Source: Saccharomonospora glauca K62 (GTDB lineage Bacteria; Actinomycetota; Actinomycetes; Mycobacteriales; Pseudonocardiaceae). From it: 64,000 nt of DNA. Below are positions 20,798 through 38,950 of this stretch, one piece after another. The notes under the pieces are model-generated. The model did not search any database and was not told the origin of the DNA. It saw only the letters and a program-made list of their open reading frames with translations. The position numbers and the translations under genes were made by a program. Position 1 is the stretch's first letter. Every line of letters begins with the position of its first letter. The DNA is taken from NCBI RefSeq assembly GCF_000243395.2, contig NZ_CM001484.1, positions 1,351,568 through 1,415,567 on the forward strand. Reading direction: 5' to 3'.

Positions 20798-23326
20798 GTG
20801 GTTCTGCGAGTCACCGGCCACCCGACCCCGGTGGAGGCGGGAAGGCACGACTGGCGGTTGGTCCCGGCTGCCGTGACGGTATGGGCGGGTACGGCGGCCG
20901 GGCTGTTGTGGGGTTGGTGGGCGTGCCCGGTTTGCGGCGTCGTCGCGGGCGCCGGTGCGGTGAGGCTGTGGCGGTGGGCGTCGCGTGGCGATCGGGACCG
21001 GCGTCGCTGGCGTCCCGCCGCCGGGGTTTTGCTGGTGTGCGGGCTGCTCACGGTGTGGCCGACCACGGCCCGGCTGTACGCCGCGGAGCACGATCCGTTG
21101 CGGGAACGGGCGCGACGAGGGGACGAGGTGTCATTGACGGCCGTGGTCGCGCAGCGCCCTCGGCCCGTGCACACGAGTGGGTACGGGGCGCGGCCCGGTG
21201 GAGTCCGGTCGGTGCTCGTGCCCGTCGACGTCGTGGCCGCGAGCTCCGGTGGAGAGGAGATCCCCTCCGCGGGCCGGGTGCTGTTCGTGGGAGACGCGAA
21301 GTTCTGGAGCGACGTCCGGGTCGGCCAGTGGGTGAGGGTCCGCGCGGAACTGGCACCCGCTCGTCCGCACGAGATGACGGTCGCGGTCGGGTACGTGCGC
21401 GAGCCACCCGAACCGGAGGGGGAACCGCCGTGGTGGCAACGTGCCGCCGAGGAGCTGCGGGAGAAGTTCCGGGCCGTCTCCGGCGTGTTGGGGGAGGAGC
21501 CCGCGGGGCTGCTTCCGGGGCTCGTCGTCGGGGACACGAGTGCGTTGCCCGAGCGCGTGGAGCGGGAATTCCTTACCTCGGGGATGTCGCATTTGACCGC
21601 CGTCTCGGGTTCCAACGTGGCCATCGTGTGCGGTGCGGTACTGGTGGTGGCGCGGATGTCGCGGTGCGGGCCGCGCACGTCGGCGGTGCTCGCCGGTCTC
21701 GCGTTAGTCGGTTTCGTCGTCCTCGTGGGCTACGAGCCGAGTGTCCTGCGCGCCGGTGTGATGGGCGCGGTGGCACTGCTCGCCTTGGTGTTGGGACGTC
21801 GGGGATCGGCCTTGCCCGCACTGGCCGCGGCGGTGTGCGTGCTCGGCCTCGCGGACCCGGAGATGGCCGTGAGCATGGGGTTCGTGCTGTCGGTGGTGGC
21901 CACGGCGGGGTTGGTGCTGGTGGCGCCGCGCTGGTCTCGGGCATTGGTCCGACGAGGACTGCCCGAGGGAGTGGCCGACGCGGTGGTGGTGCCGACGGTG
22001 GCGTTCCTGGTGACCGCTCCGGTCATCGCCGGCATGGCGGGCGAAGTGAGCCTGGTGTCCGTCGGCGCGAACCTGTTGGCGGCTCCGGTGGTGGCTCCGG
22101 TGACCGTGTTGGGCGCGCTGGCCGCGGTGCTCGCGCCGTGGTGGCCCGATGCGGCCGAGCTCGTCGTGCACGTCGTGGGGCCGGGAGTGCAGTGGTTGAT
22201 CCTCGTGGCGCGACACGCGGCGGCGATTCCCGGCGCCGTGCTGCACTGGCCGTCGGGATGGTGGGGTGCGGGGCTCGCGGCACTCGCCGTGGCCGTGGTC
22301 GTCTGCGGGGTGCGGTATCGCCGAACCCGGTCGCTGCTCGTGCTTGTCGTGGTCGTGGTGGTCGCGCTCACCGTGTCCACGCGGGTGTGGGCGCCGGGTT
22401 GGCCACCCGACCGTTGGGTGCTCGTCGCCTGCGACGTGGGGCAGGGCGACGGTCTCGTGCTGGCCACGGGAGAACCGGGGCGGGTGGTGGTCGTGGACAC
22501 CGGACCCGACCCGGCGTTGCTCGACCGCTGCCTCGATCGTCTCGACGTCGAGCGCGTGCCGCTGGTGGTCCTGACCCATCTGCATGCCGACCACGTCGGT
22601 GGGCTGGCCTCGGTGTTCGACGGCCGTGCCGTGGGAGCGGTGGCCGTGGGCCCGGGGCGCAGTCCGGCCTGGGCGTGGGACGACGTGCTCCGCGTGACCA
22701 CCGCGCGCGGCGTACCGATGGTGGAGCTGACGGCGGGCGATCGGCTGACGTGGCCCGAACTCCGGCTCGACGTGCTGGCCCCCACCGCGCCGGTCGCTCC
22801 CCCCACCGAGGACGCCGACGGCACCGCGGTCAACAACGGCTCGGTGGTCCTCCGTGCCACGACACCAGCGGGCCGGGTCCTGCTGACCGGGGACGTGGAA
22901 CTCGCCGCGCAGGCGGACCTGCTGGCGGCGGGGGAGGACCTTCGCGCGGACGTCCTCAAGGTGCCGCATCACGGCAGCAGGTACACGCTTCCGACCTTCC
23001 TTACGGCGGTGTCGCCGCGAGTCGCGGTCACCAGCGTGGGGGCGGACAACTCCTACGGCCACCCCAGTTCCGTGACGTTGCGGGCGCTTGCGGAGGCGGG
23101 AGCGCTGGTGGCCAGAACCGACACCGGGGGCGACACGGCCGTCGTGCTGGACGAAGGTGAACTCGCCGTGGTGGCGCGGGGTGCGGCGCCGCGACGACGG
23201 CCGTGTCGATCCGGAGGACTCAGTCGTCGAGCGCGGCCTGCACGGCCTCCACCGACGGCGGCACGGTGGCCTTGGGGCCGACGCGGTCGCCGAGGGCGTC
23301 GAGGGTCTTCAGTCCGTCTCCGGTGA
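20798..23326 (+). CDS. comEC: ComEC/Rec2 competence channel
   Basis: An 842-residue multi-pass membrane protein with a DUF4131-like N-terminal part (about 15-190), the Competence domain helices (from SGMSHLTAVSGSNVAIV, about 265, to about 530) and a C-terminal metallo-beta-lactamase domain with THLHADHVGG (about 595) and PHHGSR (about 726). It should carry one DNA strand into the cell. The last 36 or so residues are Arg/Pro-rich low-complexity sequence that runs antisense into the 3' end of the ThrC-family gene for 107 bases; the domain itself ends before that. Confidence 0.92.
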   Translation: MVLRVTGHPTPVEAGRHDWRLVPAAVTVWAGTAAGLLWGWWACPVCGVVAGAGAVRLWRWASRGDRDRRRWRPAAGVLLVCGLLTVWPTTARLYAAEHDPLRERARRGDEVSLTAVVAQRPRPVHTSGYGARPGGVRSVLVPVDVVAASSGGEEIPSAGRVLFVGDAKFWSDVRVGQWVRVRAELAPARPHEMTVAVGYVREPPEPEGEPPWWQRAAEELREKFRAVSGVLGEEPAGLLPGLVVGDTSALPERVEREFLTSGMSHLTAVSGSNVAIVCGAVLVVARMSRCGPRTSAVLAGLALVGFVVLVGYEPSVLRAGVMGAVALLALVLGRRGSALPALAAAVCVLGLADPEMAVSMGFVLSVVATAGLVLVAPRWSRALVRRGLPEGVADAVVVPTVAFLVTAPVIAGMAGEVSLVSVGANLLAAPVVAPVTVLGALAAVLAPWWPDAAELVVHVVGPGVQWLILVARHAAAIPGAVLHWPSGWWGAGLAALAVAVVVCGVRYRRTRSLLVLVVVVVVALTVSTRVWAPGWPPDRWVLVACDVGQGDGLVLATGEPGRVVVVDTGPDPALLDRCLDRLDVERVPLVVLTHLHADHVGGLASVFDGRAVGAVAVGPGRSPAWAWDDVLRVTTARGVPMVELTAGDRLTWPELRLDVLAPTAPVAPPTEDADGTAVNNGSVVLRATTPAGRVLLTGDVELAAQADLLAAGEDLRADVLKVPHHGSRYTLPTFLTAVSPRVAVTSVGADNSYGHPSSVTLRALAEAGALVARTDTGGDTAVVLDEGELAVVARGAAPRRRPCRSGGLSRRARPARPPPTAARWPWGRRGRRGRRGSSVRLR

Positions 23327-24482
23327 TCAGCAGCACCGTCTCGGCGTCCGGGTCGAGCTTGCCGGTCTCGACGAGCTTCTTCGCGGTCGCGACGGTGACG
23401 CCCCCGGCGGTCTCGGTGAAGATGCCCTCGGTGCGGGCCAGCAGCCGGATGCCTGCCACGATCTCGTCGTCGCTGACGTCGGCGATGGCTCCGCCCGTGC
23501 GACGCACGGTGTCGAGGACGTACGGTCCGTCGGCGGGGTTGCCGATAGCGAGCGAACGGGCGATGGTGTCGGGTCGCACCGGGCGCACCACGTCGTGTCC
23601 GTCGCGGAACGCCGCGGAGACCGGGGAGCAGCCGGTGGCCTGGGCGCCGAACACGCGGTACGGACTCGCTTCCACCAGACCGAGTTCACCGAGCTCCCGG
23701 AATCCTTTGTCTACTTTGGTCAGCTGGGAGCCCGACGCGATCGGCACCACGATCTGCTCCGGAATCCGCCAGCCGAGCTGCTCGGCGACCTCGAAGGCGA
23801 GTGTCTTGGAGCCCTCCGAGTAGTAGGGGCGCACGTTGACGTTGACGAACGCCCAATTCTCGTGCTCGGCGGCGAGTTCGGTGGCCAGCCGGTTGACGTC
23901 GTCGTAGTTGCCGTCCACCGCGATCAGGGCGCCGTCGTACACGGCGGTCGTGAGTACCTTCGCCCGCTCCAGTGACGAGGGGATCAGGACCACGGACTGC
24001 CAGCCCGCCCTGGCGGCGGCCGCCGCGACCGCGTTGGCGAGATTGCCGGTGGACGGACAGGCGAGGGTGTCGAAGCCGAACTCGCGGGCCGCGGCCAGCG
24101 CCACGGCCACCACCCGGTCCTTGAACGAGTGCGTTGGGTTGCCGGTGTCGTCCTTGACCCACAACCGGCGCACGCCGAGTGCCTTCGCGAGTCGGTCGGC
24201 GCGCACCAGCCGGGTACAGCCGGGCTCGGTGTTCGGGATCTCCTCGACGTTCGACGGAACGGGAAGCAGTTTCTTGTAACGCCAGATGTTGCGGGGCCCG
24301 GATTCGATGTCCTCCCGGCGCACGCGCCCGAAGTCGTAGGCGACCTCCAACGGAGAGAAGTCGTGCGGGGAGACGAACTCCGGAGCCAACGGCTGGCGGT
24401 GGCCCTCCTCCTTCGACACGAGTTCCACGGCGGGGCCGAGGTCGACGGCACGACGGGAGGATGTGGGCGCAATTGCGGTCAT
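23220..24482 (-). CDS. thrC: Threonine synthase family PLP enzyme (ThrC or MetM-like)
   Basis: A 420-residue fold-type II PLP enzyme. The PLP Lys is in PTHSFKDR (about 121), STGN (about 143) grips the phosphate, and GSQLTK is the family glycine loop. The sequence class is threonine synthase, which converts O-phosphohomoserine to threonine. However, a SAM-I riboswitch controls it, which points to methionine metabolism: a ThrC paralogue making homocysteine from O-phosphohomoserine has been described in Streptomyces (MetM, as I recall; not checked here). The ATG at 24482 has GAGGAAGGA at a good distance; the in-frame ATG at 24500 lies inside the riboswitch P1 helix and is rejected. It is convergent with comEC. 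Confidence 0.88.
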   Translation of the reverse strand: MTAIAPTSSRRAVDLGPAVELVSKEEGHRQPLAPEFVSPHDFSPLEVAYDFGRVRREDIESGPRNIWRYKKLLPVPSNVEEIPNTEPGCTRLVRADRLAKALGVRRLWVKDDTGNPTHSFKDRVVAVALAAAREFGFDTLACPSTGNLANAVAAAAARAGWQSVVLIPSSLERAKVLTTAVYDGALIAVDGNYDDVNRLATELAAEHENWAFVNVNVRPYYSEGSKTLAFEVAEQLGWRIPEQIVVPIASGSQLTKVDKGFRELGELGLVEASPYRVFGAQATGCSPVSAAFRDGHDVVRPVRPDTIARSLAIGNPADGPYVLDTVRRTGGAIADVSDDEIVAGIRLLARTEGIFTETAGGVTVATAKKLVETGKLDPDAETVLLITGDGLKTLDALGDRVGPKATVPPSVEAVQAALDD

Positions 24483-24495
24483 CGCGAGGTCCTTC

Positions 24496-24625
24496 CTCAT
24501 CTTTCCCGCTGACGCGGGGCGGAATTGGCACCGATGCCGTCAGCTACCTCGCGGAATCCGAGATGACAGGCTGACGCCGGTTGCCGGGGCTTCAACGGGC
24601 CGGTCCCTCTGCCCCTCTGGATGAG
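24496..24625 (-). ncRNA. SAM-I riboswitch (S-box leader)
   Basis: Read on the minus strand, CTCATC (P1 5') is followed by AGAGGGGCAGAGGGACCGGC, then TTGAAGCC and GGCAACC, all core S-box positions. P3 is CGTCAGC with GCTGACG, then GGTGCCAATTCC, P4 CCCGC-GTCA-GCGGG, and the closing P1 strand GATGAG (24501-24496). P1 pairing is perfect over 6 bases. The P1 3' strand runs straight into GAAGGA, the ribosome binding site of the gene at 24482. SAM binding should therefore hide the start region and turn translation off. No separate terminator is seen. Confidence 0.92.
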
Positions 24626-24723
24626 CTATTCGGTTGTGGTCCGCCGGTGATCGCGGCGACGACACGTAGCGTACGGCATGGAGCGCGCCGCGCGCCATGT
24701 GCTGCGAACCGGCTCCCACATGG

Positions 24724-33261: not shown

Positions 33262-33413
33262 GTGTCCGCAGCCTGTGCACGCGTGTCCGCAGGTTATGTG
33301 CGGGTGTTTGCACTTACCGTACCGAGGTCGCCACACGGCGTACCGACACCGCGTACCGGAACTGCGGACACGCGTTCGAGAACTGCGGACACGCGTGCAC
33401 AACCTGCGGACAC
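33262..33413. repeat. Inverted array of 21-bp-period repeats
   Basis: The core GTGTCCGCAG occurs on the plus strand at 33262 and 33283, with a degenerate copy GTGTTTGCAC at 33304. It occurs on the minus strand at 33413-33404, 33392-33383 and 33371-33362, with a degenerate copy near 33349. Every spacing between the six main units is exactly 21 bases. The outer arms (33262-33282 and 33393-33413) match as inverted repeats at 19 of 21 positions. The right arm is translated in frame as VSA-containing heptads at the end of the chelatase gene. Confidence 0.9.
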
Positions 33414-34130
33414 GGCGTAGCGGCGCAGGACGACGTCGGCCACTCGGGTGTCGGCGCCGAGAGGGGCGGCGATCAGCACGCCCGGTTCGGCCTCGTTCGC
33501 CAGTCGCGCCACCCGGTCGGGCAGCAAACCCGGCGCGAGGAACCACGACGCGACGGCGAATCGTCGGGCACCACGGGCGCGTAACGCGACCAGCGCCGAC
33601 CGCACGTCGGGCCGGGTCGCGCTCGCGAACGCCGGGGTCACCAGGCAGGCGTGCCGTTCCTGCCACTCTCGCGCGAGCTCCCCGACCACCGCGTTCGCCG
33701 AGGCGTGCGAGGACCCCACGGCCGCCAGCACGAGCCCCAGCTCGGGGTCGTCCGGGGCTGCGCCCGCCTCGGTGACGCGGTCCAGCGCCACCGCCTGCAG
33801 TGCCGGGTCGGGGCCGAGGACGGAGGCCACCGTGACCCGCAGGTGCGGCGACCGGGCGGTCACGTCGGCGACGATCGCGGGCAGGTCGACGCGGGCGTGG
33901 TAGGCGCTGCCCAGCAGCAGGGGCACCGCTACGACGTGCCGGTGCCCCTCGTCGTGCAGGCGGAGGAGCGCCTCGTCCGTCCTCGGGGACGACAGGTCGA
34001 GGAACGACTCCCGAACGTCCAGTTCCGGGGCTTTTCCGCGCAGCACGCCGACGAGGTCGCGCACGGTGGCCGCGGAGCGGGGATCACGGCTTCCGTGCGC
34101 CACCACCAGCAGCGCGGGATGTCGGTTCAC
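33294..34130 (-). CDS. Sirohydrochlorin chelatase, CbiX/SirB type, with repeat-encoded tail
   Basis: A 278-residue two-module chelatase. The N-terminal LLVVAHGSRDPRS (about 6-18) has the metal-binding His, LLLGSAYHARVDLP (about 82) the second site, and VLAAVGSSHASAN starts the second module. Within a sulfate assimilation operon it most likely inserts iron into sirohydrochlorin to make siroheme for the sulfite reductase. The GTG overlaps the cysN stop by 4 bases. The last 40 or so residues (VSAGCAR, VSAVLER, VSAVPVR) come from the 21-bp repeat array and look added to a complete domain. Confidence 0.88.
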   Translation of the reverse strand: MNRHPALLVVAHGSRDPRSAATVRDLVGVLRGKAPELDVRESFLDLSSPRTDEALLRLHDEGHRHVVAVPLLLGSAYHARVDLPAIVADVTARSPHLRVTVASVLGPDPALQAVALDRVTEAGAAPDDPELGLVLAAVGSSHASANAVVGELAREWQERHACLVTPAFASATRPDVRSALVALRARGARRFAVASWFLAPGLLPDRVARLANEAEPGVLIAAPLGADTRVADVVLRRYAVSAGCARVSAVLERVSAVPVRGVGTPCGDLGTVSANTRT

Positions 34131-35413
34131 CGGTGTTCGTTCGGGCTCAGCGCGGCGAAACGCTCGCCGACGAGCCCAGCGGCCAGGGTGTCGCCGCTGG
34201 CCGGGTCGATCACCAGGAACGCCCCGGTGCGGGGGCTGTCGGCGTAGTCGTCCACGGGAATCGGCTCGGCCAGTCGCAGCGACACGGCACCGATCTCGTT
34301 GAGTTCCAACGACTCGGGGGCCGGGACGGTCGACAGTGTCTGCTCGTCGAAGCGGGAGCCGAGTTCCCGGACCAACGCCTGCACGGTGCGGGTGCCGTGC
34401 TTGACGAGCACCCTGGCGCCCGGCCGCAACGACGTGCTCGACAACCAGCACAGCGTGGCGTCGAACTCGTCGGTCACGGTCGGTCGCTCCGAGGCCGACG
34501 CGATCAGGTCACCGCGCGCGATGTCGATGTCGTCGGCGAGCAGCAGGGTGATGGAGGTGCCCGCACCGGCTTCGGTGAGCGGGCCGTCCGGGGTGTCGAT
34601 GCGCTCGACGGTGCTCCGCAGCCCGGCGGGGAGCACCACGACCTCGTCGCCGGGCCGCACGGTGCCCGCCGCGATCTGCCCGGCGTAGCCGCGGTAGTCG
34701 GGGTACTCCTCGGTCCGGGGCCGGATCACGTACTGCACGGGGAAGCGGAACGCGGCCTCGTGCGGGTCCGGTGCCACCGGCACGGTCTCCAGGTGCTCCA
34801 GCAGCGTCGGGCCCTGGTACCAGGGGGTGTTCTCCGAACGGGTGGCCACGTTGTCCCCGTGCAACGCCGACACGGGGATGGCCAGCACGGCCTCCTCGGC
34901 GTATCCGAGCGAGGTGGCGTGCGCGGTGAACTCCTTGGCGATGACGGAGAACGCCGAGGAGTCGTAGTTGATCAGGTCGATCTTGTTCACGGCCAGCACC
35001 AGGCGTGGCACCCCGAGCAGAGCGAGCACGGCCGCGTGGCGCTTGGTCTGCTCCACCACGCCCTTGCGGGCGTCCACGAGCAGCACGGCGAGCTGCGCCG
35101 TCGAGGCGCCCGTGACGGTGTTGCGCGTGTATTGCACGTGTCCCGGCGTGTCCGCGAGCACGAAGCTCCGCTTCGGGGTCGCGAAGTACCGGTACGCCAC
35201 GTCGATCGTGATGCCCTGTTCGCGTTCGGACCGCAGTCCGTCCACCAGGAGGGAGAGGTCGGGGGTGGACAGCCCCTTGTCGACGCTCGCGCGTTGCACG
35301 GCGTCGAGCTGGTCGGCGAGTACCGACTTCGTGTCGTAGAGCAGACGCCCGACGAGTGTGGACTTCCCGTCGTCCACGCTTCCGGCGGTGGCCAGCCTCA
35401 GCAGACTCGACAT
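34127..35413 (-). CDS. cysN: Sulfate adenylyltransferase subunit 1 (GTPase)
   Basis: A 428-residue EF-Tu-like GTPase that drives ATP sulfurylase. G1 GSVDDGKST, the switch REQGITIDVAYRYF, G3 DTPGHVQYTRN and G4 NKIDL are present. The length matches CysN alone, without a fused APS kinase. The start is 1 base after cysD, and the GTPase motif follows the ATG at once. With cysD it makes adenylyl sulfate from sulfate and ATP. Confidence 0.96.
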   Translation of the reverse strand: MSSLLRLATAGSVDDGKSTLVGRLLYDTKSVLADQLDAVQRASVDKGLSTPDLSLLVDGLRSEREQGITIDVAYRYFATPKRSFVLADTPGHVQYTRNTVTGASTAQLAVLLVDARKGVVEQTKRHAAVLALLGVPRLVLAVNKIDLINYDSSAFSVIAKEFTAHATSLGYAEEAVLAIPVSALHGDNVATRSENTPWYQGPTLLEHLETVPVAPDPHEAAFRFPVQYVIRPRTEEYPDYRGYAGQIAAGTVRPGDEVVVLPAGLRSTVERIDTPDGPLTEAGAGTSITLLLADDIDIARGDLIASASERPTVTDEFDATLCWLSSTSLRPGARVLVKHGTRTVQALVRELGSRFDEQTLSTVPAPESLELNEIGAVSLRLAEPIPVDDYADSPRTGAFLVIDPASGDTLAAGLVGERFAALSPNEHR

Positions 35414-35414
35414 T

Positions 35415-36335
35415 CTAGAAGTACCCCTCCCGCTTGCGGTCCTCCATGGCGGCTTCCGACAGCCGGTCGTCGGCCCTGGTGGCGCCACGCTCGGTGAGCC
35501 GGCTGGCCTGAACCTCGGCGATGACCTCGTCGACGGTGGTGGCCGTGGACTCCACGGCACCGGTGCACGAGCCGTCCCCGACGGTGCGGTACCGCACCAT
35601 CAGTTCCTTGACCTCCTCGCCTTCGCGCGGCCCGCCCCACGGGCCCTCGGTGAGCCACATGCCGTCGCGGCGGAACACCTTGCGGGTGTGGGCGTAGTAG
35701 ATCGCGGGAAGCTCCACGTTCTCCCGTTTGATGTAGTGCCACACGTCGGCCTCGGTCCAGTTGGACAGGGGGAAGACGCGCACGTGTTCGCCGGGGCGGT
35801 GCCTGCCGTTGTAGAGGTTCCACAGCTCCGGACGCTGCCGGCGAGGGTCCCACTGGCCGAATGCGTTGCGGAGGCTGAAGATGCGTTCCTTGGCGCGGGC
35901 GCGTTCCTCGTCGCGCCTGCCGCCCCCGAACACGGCGTCGAAGCGGTGTTCGGCAATGGTGTCGAGCAGCGGCTGGGTCTGCAGCGGGTTGCGTGTGCCG
36001 TCGGGACGCTCCTGGAGTCGTCCGTCGTCGATCCAGTCCTGCACCTTCGCGACCACGAGCCGCAGCCCGTACTTCTCCACCACGTGGTCGCGGAAGGCGA
36101 TGACCTCCTCGAAGTTGTGCCCGGTGTCCACGTGCAGCAGGGGGAACGGCACCGGCGCGGGCCAGAACGCCTTGATCGCGAGGTGGACCAGCACCGTGGA
36201 GTCCTTGCCACCGGAGAACAGGATCACCGGCCGGTCGAACTCACCGGCGACTTCGCGGAAGATGTGCACCGCCTCCGATTCGAGGACGGCGAGGTGGTCC
36301 CGCGCCACGTCGGTCGCGGACTGCGCAGTCGTCAT
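35415..36335 (-). CDS. cysD: Sulfate adenylyltransferase subunit 2
   Basis: A 306-residue ATP pyrophosphatase-type subunit. PVILFSGGKDSTVLVHLA (about 36) is the PP-loop, LLHVDTGHNF follows, and the C-terminal DRKREGYF is the CysD signature. The ATG at 36335 has GAAGGGAA upstream. A tRNA-3'-end-like element lies in the 64-base gap between it and cysH. Confidence 0.96.
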   Translation of the reverse strand: MTTAQSATDVARDHLAVLESEAVHIFREVAGEFDRPVILFSGGKDSTVLVHLAIKAFWPAPVPFPLLHVDTGHNFEEVIAFRDHVVEKYGLRLVVAKVQDWIDDGRLQERPDGTRNPLQTQPLLDTIAEHRFDAVFGGGRRDEERARAKERIFSLRNAFGQWDPRRQRPELWNLYNGRHRPGEHVRVFPLSNWTEADVWHYIKRENVELPAIYYAHTRKVFRRDGMWLTEGPWGGPREGEEVKELMVRYRTVGDGSCTGAVESTATTVDEVIAEVQASRLTERGATRADDRLSEAAMEDRKREGYF

Positions 36336-36348
36336 GATTCCCTTCCCT

Positions 36349-36376
36349 TGGTGTCGAGCCCCGGTCTCGAACCGGG
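36349..36376 (-). other. tRNA 3'-end-like fragment
   Basis: On the minus strand a perfect T-arm (CCCGG, TTCGAGA, CCGGG) is followed by 7 bases, one discriminator A and CCA, exactly the layout of a tRNA 3' end. No matching 5' acceptor strand or anticodon arm precedes it, so it is a fragment or a chance likeness. It lies between cysH and cysD. tRNA 3' ends are common attachment sites of integrative elements. Confidence 0.4.
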
Positions 36377-36399
36377 CCCTTCCCGCGGAGTCGTGAACG

Positions 36400-37104
36400 T
36401 CAGGCGTGCAGGCCGCACTCGGTCTTCGACGTGCCCGCCCAGCGTCCGCTGCGCGGGTCGGCACCGGGAGCCACCTTCGCGGTGCAGGGGGCGCAGCCGA
36501 TGGACAGGTAGCCCTCGCCGACGAGGGGGTTCTGCAGGATGCCGTGTCGCCGGATGTAGTCGTTGAACTCGTCGTCGGTCCAGGCGGCGATGGGGTTGAC
36601 CTTGACGAGGCCGTTGCGCTCGTCCCACATGACGACGGGGGTGTTCGCCCGCGTCGGTGCGTCCACGCGGCGTACTCCGGTGACCCAGCAGGAGTACGAC
36701 GCGAGAACCCGGCGGAGCGGCACCACCTTGCGCAGGTGGCAGCACCGGTTCGGGTCGCGTTCGTGGAGCCGCGGGCCGTACTCGGCGTCCTGCTCGGCCA
36801 CGCTCTGCTCGGGTTGCGCGTTGATGATGCGCACCCGCGGGTAGACGGTGGCGACGGCGTCGCGTGTCCCGATCGTCTCGGCGAAGTGGTAGCCGGTGTC
36901 GAGGAAGAGGACGTCGATGTCGGGCTTGACCTTCGTGGCGAGGTCGATGAGGACGGCGTCCTGCATGTTGGAGGCGACGATGAGGTCGTCGCCGAACTGC
37001 TCCACCGCCCACCGCAGTGCCTCGTCGGCGCTCGCGTCCGCCAGTTTCTCGGACGCCTCGGTCGCCAGAGTCTTGAGCTCGTCCCGCGAAGCTGCTGCGG
37101 TCAT
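36400..37104 (-). CDS. cysH: Adenylylsulfate (APS) reductase
   Basis: A 234-residue reductase that converts adenylyl sulfate to sulfite with thioredoxin. The Cys-Cys pair in NRCCHLRK (about 121-122) and CAPC (204-207) would ligate a 4Fe-4S cluster, the mark of APS rather than PAPS reductase; the catalytic Cys is in the C-terminal TECGLH (about 230). This agrees with the lack of an APS kinase gene. GGAGGT precedes the ATG at 37104, which overlaps the stop of the zinc-ribbon gene. Confidence 0.95.
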   Translation of the reverse strand: MTAAASRDELKTLATEASEKLADASADEALRWAVEQFGDDLIVASNMQDAVLIDLATKVKPDIDVLFLDTGYHFAETIGTRDAVATVYPRVRIINAQPEQSVAEQDAEYGPRLHERDPNRCCHLRKVVPLRRVLASYSCWVTGVRRVDAPTRANTPVVMWDERNGLVKVNPIAAWTDDEFNDYIRRHGILQNPLVGEGYLSIGCAPCTAKVAPGADPRSGRWAGTSKTECGLHA

Positions 37105-37271
37105 CGACTTACCTCCGGTATCCGCAAACCGACGAATTGCACCGCGAAGACCCGCCGGCAGGAGCCGCATAGCCAGGCCGTGTCGTCCTCCGGTCGAAGA
37201 TCCTCTTCGCCACAGTACGGACAGTGGAAGGGGGTGACACGGGTGGCGCGACCGGGTACCGACTCGCTCAT
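37101..37271 (-). CDS. Small zinc-ribbon protein of the sulfite reductase operon
   Basis: A 56-residue protein with CPYC and CGSC (about 17-20 and 35-38), a likely zinc or iron ribbon. It overlaps the sulfite reductase gene and cysH by 4 bases each (ATGA), so it is translated between them. A small gene at this position is also found in Streptomyces cys operons, as I recall. A role in electron transfer or assembly of the reductases is possible but unproven. Confidence 0.8.
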   Translation of the reverse strand: MSESVPGRATRVTPFHCPYCGEEDLRPEDDTAWLCGSCRRVFAVQFVGLRIPEVSR

Positions 37272-38950
37272 GTCAGGTCCGCTTCCTCGGCCCGAGCCAC
37301 CCACTGCGCGAACCGCTCACCGTCTTTGCGTTGGGCGACGTAATTGCGTATGACACGTTCCACGTAGTCCGTCAACTCGGCGGCGGTGACCTTGTGCCTC
37401 CGCAGTTTACGGCCGAATCCCGCGTCGAGGCCCAGACCACCACCGAGGTGCACCTGGAATCCTTCGACCTGCTTGCCCTCGGCGTCGGTGACGATCTGTC
37501 CCTTGAGTCCGATGTCGGCGACCTGGATGCGGGCGCACGAGTTGGGGCAGCCGTTGAGGTGCACGCTCACCGGGTGTTCGAGCTCGGACTGGACGTCGGC
37601 CAGCCGCTGTTCGAGTTCGGACACGAGTCGCCGCGCGCGGTCCTTGGTCTCGACGATCGCGAGTTTGCAGAACTCGATTCCGGTGCAGGCCATGACGCCG
37701 CGCCGCCACGGCGAGGGGGCGGTGTCGAGACCGATCTCGGCGAGTTCGGCGCGGAGACCGTCGATCTCCGAGGCGGGCACGTCGAGTACGAGCAGCTTCT
37801 GCTGCGGGGTGAGTCGCACGCGGTTGGACCCGGCTCGCTCGGCCGCCTTGGCCGCTGCGATAAGCATCGATCCGGAGGTACGGCCGGCGACGGGGGCCGC
37901 GCCGACGTAGTAGAGCCCGTCCTTCTGCCGATGCACGCCGACGTGGTCGACCGGGTGGTCGGGCACCTCGGGGGCCGGGCCGTCGCGCAGGGGACGCCCG
38001 AGGTACTCCCGCTCCAGCACCTCGCGGAACTTCTCGGCGCCCCAGTCCTTCACGAGGAACTTGAGCCGGGCACGGGAACGGAGCCTGCGGTAGCCGTAGT
38101 CGCGGAACACGCTCACCACGCCGGCCCACACGTCGGCGACCTCGTCGAGTGCCACCCACGCGCCGAGTCGGACGCCGAGCATGGGGTTGGTGGACAGCCC
38201 ACCGCCCACCCACAGGTCGAAGCCGGGGCCGTGCTCGGGATGGTCGACACCGACGAACGCCACGTCGTGGATTTCGTGTGCGACGTCGGGAAGACCCGAG
38301 ACGGCGGTCTTGAACTTGCGCGGAAGGTTGGCGAACTCGGGCGCCCCGAGGTAGCGGCGGCGGATCTCCTCGATCGCCGGGGTTCCGTCGATCACCTCGT
38401 CGGCGGCGATGCCCGCCACGGGCGACCCGAGAATCACGCGAGGGCTGTCGCCGCACGCCTCGACGGTGGACAGGCCGGCGGCCTCCAGCTTCTCCCAGAT
38501 CGTGGGCACGTCCTCGATCCGGACCCAGTGGTACTGGATGTTCTGCCGGTCGGTGATGTCGGCCGTGTCGCGGGCGTGGGTCTGGGACAGCTCGCCGATG
38601 AGCGCGAGCTGTCCGGTGGTCAGCGCGCCGCCGTCGATGCGCACGCGCAGCATGAAGTAGCGGTCCTCGAGCTCCTCCGGTTCCAGTGTCGCCGTCCGCC
38701 CGCCGTCGATTCCGGGCCTGCGCTGGGTGTAGAGGCCGTACCAACGGAAACGCCCCCGTAGGTCGCCGGGGTCGATGGAGTCGAATCCCCGGTGGGCGTA
38801 GATGTTCTCGATCCGAGCCCTGACGTTGAGCGGGGGATCATCCTTTTTGGATCGCTCGTTGGCGTTGAGTGGTTCCCGGTAGCCGAGGGCCCACTGCCCC
38901 TCGCCACGAGGGCGTCGGGTGCGGGGGGCGCTGCCTGTCTGTGGGGCCAT
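37268..38950 (-). CDS. Assimilatory sulfite reductase (ferredoxin), SirA/NirA type
   Basis: A 560-residue siroheme and 4Fe-4S enzyme that reduces sulfite to sulfide. Two nitrite/sulfite reductase half-domains repeat; the cluster ligands are Cys 422, 428, 468 and 472 (CTGIEFC, GCPNSC). FRWYGLYTQRR (about 68) and EACGDSPR (about 165) contain the Tyr and Cys that are cross-linked in mycobacterial relatives. GGAGG precedes the ATG. It is the first structural gene of the operon, 135 bases after the leader peptide. Confidence 0.94.
   Translation of the reverse strand: MAPQTGSAPRTRRPRGEGQWALGYREPLNANERSKKDDPPLNVRARIENIYAHRGFDSIDPGDLRGRFRWYGLYTQRRPGIDGGRTATLEPEELEDRYFMLRVRIDGGALTTGQLALIGELSQTHARDTADITDRQNIQYHWVRIEDVPTIWEKLEAAGLSTVEACGDSPRVILGSPVAGIAADEVIDGTPAIEEIRRRYLGAPEFANLPRKFKTAVSGLPDVAHEIHDVAFVGVDHPEHGPGFDLWVGGGLSTNPMLGVRLGAWVALDEVADVWAGVVSVFRDYGYRRLRSRARLKFLVKDWGAEKFREVLEREYLGRPLRDGPAPEVPDHPVDHVGVHRQKDGLYYVGAAPVAGRTSGSMLIAAAKAAERAGSNRVRLTPQQKLLVLDVPASEIDGLRAELAEIGLDTAPSPWRRGVMACTGIEFCKLAIVETKDRARRLVSELEQRLADVQSELEHPVSVHLNGCPNSCARIQVADIGLKGQIVTDAEGKQVEGFQVHLGGGLGLDAGFGRKLRRHKVTAAELTDYVERVIRNYVAQRKDGERFAQWVARAEEADLT

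Follow-up and report, generated by a model that had tools for sequence, protein, structure and literature searches.

A SAM-I riboswitch before a threonine-synthase-like gene of Saccharomonospora glauca, most likely metM, in a lineage in which the sulfur carrier MetO is not found

We analysed a stretch of 64,000 nucleotides from the genome of Saccharomonospora glauca K62 (contig NZ_CM001484.1; the whole stretch is called the window below), in which a gene of the threonine synthase (ThrC) family, referred to here as metM, is preceded by an S-adenosylmethionine (SAM) riboswitch of the SAM-I (S-box) class. The features of the locus, in window positions, are as follows.

23220..24482, minus strand: metM, ThrC-family pyridoxal phosphate (PLP) enzyme, 420 amino acids from the likely start, the open reading frame beginning at 24500 (PF00291, TIGR00260)
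24120..24122, minus strand: Lys codon within NPTHSFKDR, K127 when numbered from ATG 24500, expected to form the Schiff base with PLP (alignment)
24490..24494, minus strand: ribosome binding site AAGGA, with 7 nt spacing to ATG 24482 (sequence)
24494..24627, minus strand: SAM-I (S-box) riboswitch aptamer (RF00162, 79.3 bits)
24496..24501, minus strand: P1 helix, 3' strand GATGAG, one base short of AAGGA (sequence)
24505..24518, minus strand: P4 hairpin CCCGC/GCGGG, strands 24518-24514 and 24509-24505 (sequence and fold)
24538..24576, minus strand: P3 hairpin with a long insert, CGTCAGC 24576-24570 and GCTGACG 24544-24538 (sequence and fold)
24620..24625, minus strand: P1 helix, 5' strand CTCATC (sequence and fold)

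The SAM-I leader and the start of metM

A cmscan search of the whole window placed RF00162 at 24627-24494 on the minus strand, immediately upstream of metM and on the same strand, with a score of 79.3 bits (E 5e-17) in comparison to a gathering cut-off of 44.4 bits, and no other RNA family in the 64 kb exceeded its gathering score. The match covers the full model (1-108), and the complete aptamer that the original prediction had read from the letters alone is thus borne out, with the helices it named located both in the sequence and in the fold and the core element GGTGCCAATTCC also present in the leader. The free-energy fold of the leader contains the P1, P3 and P4 helices (z = -2.19 against shuffles). 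The leader differs from the family model by its long P3 insert, in which the covariance-model alignment passes over 36 bases.

The P1 3' strand had further been predicted to abut the ribosome binding site, and indeed GATGAG (24501-24496) stops one base before AAGGA (24494-24490). The first ATG of the open reading frame, at 24500, falls within the P1 3' strand. The start codon is likely to be ATG 24482, which has AAGGA 7 nt before it, and close relatives show a start codon at the equivalent position. No intrinsic terminator-like site was found between window positions 24300 and 24800, and intrinsic termination was discarded as the expression platform. This result, together with the distance of only 13 nt from the end of P1 to ATG 24482, suggests that control by SAM (Rho aside) would be exerted at the level of translation. 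At high SAM the aptamer would close P1, bringing its 3' strand against the ribosome binding site and turning translation off, while at low SAM P1 would open and MetM would be made.

The same arrangement was observed in the leaders of other metM genes. A motif search found the GGTGC core block of the aptamer in 129 of 141 metM loci, the remaining 12 showing no core match to the motif, and a P1 3' strand was identified in 128 of these 129. The P1 strands differ little between the loci compared, the 3' strand ends 8 to 20 nt before the first in-frame start, and each of the 128 leaders has an AGG, GGA or GAG stretch if the final two bases of P1 are counted. By eye, many metM leaders share a small GAGG..CCTC hairpin surrounding the ribosome binding site (window 24476-24506, minus strand), which may contribute to the expression platform; in the window leader it folds no better than shuffles (z -0.97).

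Paralogy and orthology of the gene

The genome assembly (4.56 Mb, 2 contigs, 99.97% complete) holds 11 matches to PF00291, one of which is the canonical thrC (L007) between hom and thrB. A second thrC beside hom and thrB, which the original prediction had proposed as a check, is therefore found elsewhere in the genome as hom-thrC-thrB, and because this operon exists separately the riboswitch-controlled gene is a ThrC paralogue, being neither the sole thrC of its genome nor the operon-linked one.

The MetM protein belongs to the ThrC type of PLP proteins and has their lysine motif, and it matches the TIGR00260 threonine synthase model with 279.6 bits in comparison to a cut-off of 167.1. A 295-residue portion of the canonical ThrC encoded in this genome scores 279.2 bits, and TIGR00260 therefore fails to separate MetM from ThrC. 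The lysine of NPTHSFKDR, which we take to be catalytic as in the enzyme family, is at least 97% conserved in 141 aligned MetM rows and is common to ThrC. The two proteins share the Pfam family, this motif and, presumably, O-phosphohomoserine as substrate, whereas MetM is longer at the N terminus, and among the 132 positions that are at least 97% conserved in the MetM rows, 70 are shared with the ThrC of the genome and 62 are either different or absent there. The differing positions include the surroundings of STGN and the NxRPYYSEGSK stretch.

A MetM-type protein was found in 136 of 197 genomes sampled from the class, the window genome being counted, and the other 135 proteins, six of them partial, are 59% to 73% identical to it. 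The group is delimited by identities of at least 59% and scores of at least 373 bits, in comparison to at most 41% and at most 223 bits for the next ThrC-type proteins among the matches listed. Among titled records, the proteins closest to that of the window are 93% identical to it (in an unclassified actinomycete metagenome-assembled genome) and 89% to 90% identical (in Amycolatopsis, Prauserella and Saccharomonospora), which places the genome in or near Pseudonocardiaceae. At 60% to 72% identity, the window protein is also orthologous to the ThrC paralogues of 75 actinobacterial loci that adjoin a gene for a MetO-type sulfur carrier, and the MetM rows with and without MetO are interleaved in one tree. 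These loci are consistent with metO lying downstream of metM in Streptomyces albulus, as we presume it does.

Both the enzyme and its SAM switch are already known from Streptomyces. A paper that cites Hasebe et al. (2024; AEM 90:e01247-24) states that they identified MetM of Streptomyces as a homocysteine synthase acting on O-phosphohomoserine, places a SAM riboswitch upstream of metM in S. albulus, and gives metO of that species as the counterpart of a sulfur-carrier gene (PMC12172450). The window gene resembles that route, as described there, in its ThrC-like PLP enzyme, its upstream SAM riboswitch (the RF00162 match) and its presumed O-phosphohomoserine substrate, and its genome differs in that no metO was found and an adjacent metY-metX pair is added.

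Distribution of the riboswitch and of other homocysteine routes

To place these results in the class, 77 of the 197 genomes were chosen, 61 with MetM and 16 without. In all 61, RF00162 was located immediately before metM and in the same orientation (in G100 as a short match 272 nt upstream), while any RF00162 match was found in only 3 of the 16 genomes without MetM, one of them under the cut-off. Titled records supplied 80 loci, in four batches of 20, and the family precedes metM in every one; these loci were collected with six protein patterns, one of which spans the start region, so that they are not fully independent of the leader. Within the window's clade, RF00162 exceeds the cut-off at all 52 loci. 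This link between riboswitch and metM across the class is apparently new as far as the literature searched shows, and a 2005 survey reported none of the conserved kind among RNA structures upstream of the methionine or threonine operons of Actinobacteria (PMC1262725). The switch precedes the gene in every MetM genome or locus tested with RF00162 and could serve as a simple marker for a correct metM call. Because the NCBIfam threonine synthase model cannot separate the two proteins, MetM is likely annotated as thrC in about two thirds of the sampled genomes (136/197), and metabolic models would miss a homocysteine synthase there.

The window genome has RF00162 sites at two places, none of them at thrC or at metY-metX. 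Besides the metM leader, a site of 63.9 bits (G000:C1:3767080-3767169, minus strand; L013) lies before a gene for an ATP-binding cassette ATPase with a NIL domain, which is probably a methionine importer, judging by its domain.

Homoserine O-acetyltransferase (MetX), counted as an NF001209 match with E of at most 1e-30, was found in 15 of the 16 genomes without MetM in comparison to 29 of the 61 with MetM (Fisher p = 6e-4, kinship uncorrected), and MetA (PF04204) was found in none of the 77. In terms of gene content, this is the pattern expected from two interchangeable homocysteine routes. One genome, G010, has neither MetM, MetX nor MetA at the cut-offs used and may represent an auxotroph, an assembly gap or another route.

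The orthology to MetM, the class-wide riboswitch link and the MetX pattern lend support to the original suggestion of a methionine enzyme misnamed thrC, and the gene, which annotation would name threonine synthase, most likely encodes the methionine-pathway enzyme MetM. The enzyme would draw O-phosphohomoserine off the threonine branch to form homocysteine, not threonine. The family annotation invites another explanation, that the gene encodes an ordinary second threonine synthase, with the SAM switch keeping the branches to threonine and to methionine in balance, since its best family models are those of threonine synthase (TIGR00260) and, by sequence, threonine synthases are also its nearest relatives of solved structure. 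We consider this highly improbable: the genome already has hom-thrC-thrB, a shutdown of threonine synthesis at high SAM would run contrary to pathway logic, and the MetX pattern together with the carrier gene adjoining 75 of the 141 loci indicates sulfur chemistry.

The presence of MetX in genomes with MetM also bears on whether metM is still in use. MetX was found in 10 of the 15 genomes of the 77-genome set that have MetM without MetO, and in 22 of 28 further Pseudonocardiaceae genomes, and at one locus of the 52 in the window's clade, L110, metM seems to carry a frameshift close to its end, so that metM could be viewed as a drifting, redundant leftover in genomes with MetY-MetX. Drift of this kind is improbable in view of the absence of any stop in the aligned reading frames of all 141 rows, the retention of the riboswitch throughout the clade, and the 11 of 43 MetO-less genomes (5 of 15 and 6 of 28) in which MetX had no match. 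The frameshift in L110 (3001-4268, a Pseudonocardia draft contig), where the length of the metM match is not a multiple of three, may be an assembly error of the draft. Since the window genome also has metY-metX, the test of methionine auxotrophy in a single metM deletion could be negative, and such a deletion may show no auxotrophy even if the gene is metM.

The missing MetO and the source of sulfur

We screened the 141 metM loci with a profile of the downstream carrier (for L174 only 1.2 kb of downstream sequence was at hand). A MetO-type carrier gene directly follows metM in 75 loci, at offsets of -4 to +183 nt, and was not found in the other 66, made up of the window locus, the rest of its 52-row clade (51 loci) and 14 loci from outside that clade. 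The window locus has no metO in the 3 kb downstream; a displaced or overlooked copy near the gene was excluded by running the metO profile over 7.3 kb of the window in all six frames, and a copy elsewhere in the genome by searches with PF02597 and with the carrier alignment at their cut-offs. We accordingly class the locus as a MetO-less variant. The expectation of a MoaD/ThiS-like partner was not borne out as far as MetO is concerned, the three ThiS-family matches of the genome being CysO in mec-cysO-cysM, ThiS beside thiG and MoaD beside moaA. CysO is the only carrier of the CysO/MetO type among them, and ThiS and MoaD were set aside as likely sulfur donors, as they adjoin thiG and moaA.

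On a FastTree tree the state of MetO needs at least 6 changes, at least 3 of which are forced by well-supported branches; rooting on ThrC is unsafe because of its long branch, and the tree does not by itself prove gain or loss. Loss is favoured because a metO-like gene adjoins the Microcystis homologue of MetM, according to the paper that cites Hasebe et al. (PMC12172450), and the lineage of the window has probably lost MetO. No residue signature of the MetO-less state was seen in MetM, no position conserved in the MetO-bearing rows being lost in more than 4 of 8 lineages, and MetO showed no significant association with MetX among the 61 genomes with MetM (p = 0.14). The repeated absence of MetO with MetM and its switch retained raises the question of whether MetM borrows the carrier of the cysteine pathway.

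A model for such borrowing is found in mycobacteria, where CysM joins O-phosphoserine to the CysO thiocarboxylate and Mec frees the cysteine (PMC3227635). A PLP enzyme, an O-phospho amino acid and a thiocarboxylated ubiquitin-like carrier are common to that route and to MetM with MetO, which would carry out a reaction of the CysM/CysO type on a substrate one carbon longer. The window genome likewise has mec-cysO-cysM; CysM, however, uses O-phosphoserine and is a separate gene here (L005), and MetM is ThrC-like, not CysM-like.

All 15 MetO-less genomes of the 77 carry one strong CysO/MetO-type carrier, and cysM lies near it in all 14 that were checked besides the window genome; the 28 Pseudonocardiaceae genomes likewise have one strong carrier each, with cysM nearby in 28 of 28. 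Seven of the 11 genomes that lack both MetO and MetX at the cut-offs have a single carrier of this type (G095, G196, G008, G085, G022, G199 and G207), and MetA was also not found in the first five, its search having covered the 77-genome set to which G199 and G207 do not belong. All seven retain MetM and the riboswitch (G199 and G207 through loci L062 and L081), so that MetM is the only homocysteine route and CysO the only carrier of its type found in them, with the reservation that draft genomes can miss genes and that a MetX under the cut-off or another route could escape detection. By elimination, CysO or free sulfide plausibly feeds MetM in the MetO-less genomes. MetM lineages without MetO, with CysO as a candidate donor, are apparently new: among the literature matches listed (titles and abstract openings) we recognised no report of MetM without MetO or of homocysteine synthesis fed by CysO, although Hasebe et al. 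(2024) may discuss it.

Taken together, these results make it very probable that metM encodes a homocysteine synthase under a SAM-I off-switch predicted to act on translation, in a genome in which MetO is absent at the cut-offs used and was probably lost, and that its sulfur would come most likely from CysO or alternatively from sulfide. Several observations weigh against this. The orthology rests on other actinobacterial rows, the sequence of S. albulus MetM itself standing outside the comparison, and for a Microcystis ThrC 51.6% identical to MetM the citing paper reports weak threonine synthesis and threonine deamination, homocysteine formation not being demonstrated (PMC12172450). The metY-metX pair means that MetM is not the sole route in the window genome, and MetX is frequent in Pseudonocardiaceae generally (the 22 of 28 above). 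MetO, a part of the characterised MetM system, is absent here; a second carrier besides MetO is present in 45 of 46 MetO-bearing genomes (by match counts), and a strong carrier in 8 of the 16 genomes without MetM, so the presence of CysO is not diagnostic.

As to the sulfur itself, MetM would most likely receive it from the CysO thiocarboxylate of mec-cysO-cysM, in a chemistry like that of CysM on O-phosphoserine. More broadly, we tentatively propose, as a possibility short of probable, that in Pseudonocardiaceae and several other MetO-less actinobacterial lineages one CysO serves both CysM and MetM, with Mec releasing both products, and that CysO and the SAM-I switch would divide sulfur between cysteine and methionine. 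Somewhat unlikely, in our view, is that MetM of the MetO-less lineages takes free sulfide directly and without a carrier, as O-acetylhomoserine sulfhydrylases do. The absence of MetO in 66 of 141 loci speaks for it, as do the sulfate-assimilation genes in the window:

34127..38950, minus strand: CysN-, CysD-, CysH- and sulfite-reductase-like genes, as context (Pfam)

These are the sulfide supply operon of the original prediction; the cluster is present, but lies about 10 kb away from metM. A gene with a CbiX domain (33294-34451) adjoins it. Against direct use of sulfide stands the strong CysO-type carrier kept in 43 of 43 MetO-less genomes examined (15 and 28), a retention that weighs little either way, CysO being common with MetO and in genomes without MetM.

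A second, weak CysO-like carrier occurs in some MetO-less genomes, namely G012, G035 and G086 of the 77 and 8 of the 28 Pseudonocardiaceae (51 to 85 bits; G203, G205, G208, G209, G210, G213, G214 and G218). Among the Pseudonocardiaceae it is commoner where MetX has no match (4 of 6 in comparison to 4 of 22, p = 0.038), and may stand in for MetO in certain species; it was not found in the window genome, and two neighbour genes at L297, one example, gave no lead. The CysO of the window genome (L005 2369-2647, minus strand) ends in GGAR, not GG, and 18 of 28 Pseudonocardiaceae CysO sequences (L269-L296) have residues after GG. Because CysO carries residues beyond GG, trimming, perhaps by Mec, may be required ahead of thiocarboxylation. 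Of the 75 MetO frames, 62 end at the aligned end (some perhaps cut by a contig end), 11 extend by Cys, one by Ala and one by Cys-Ala.

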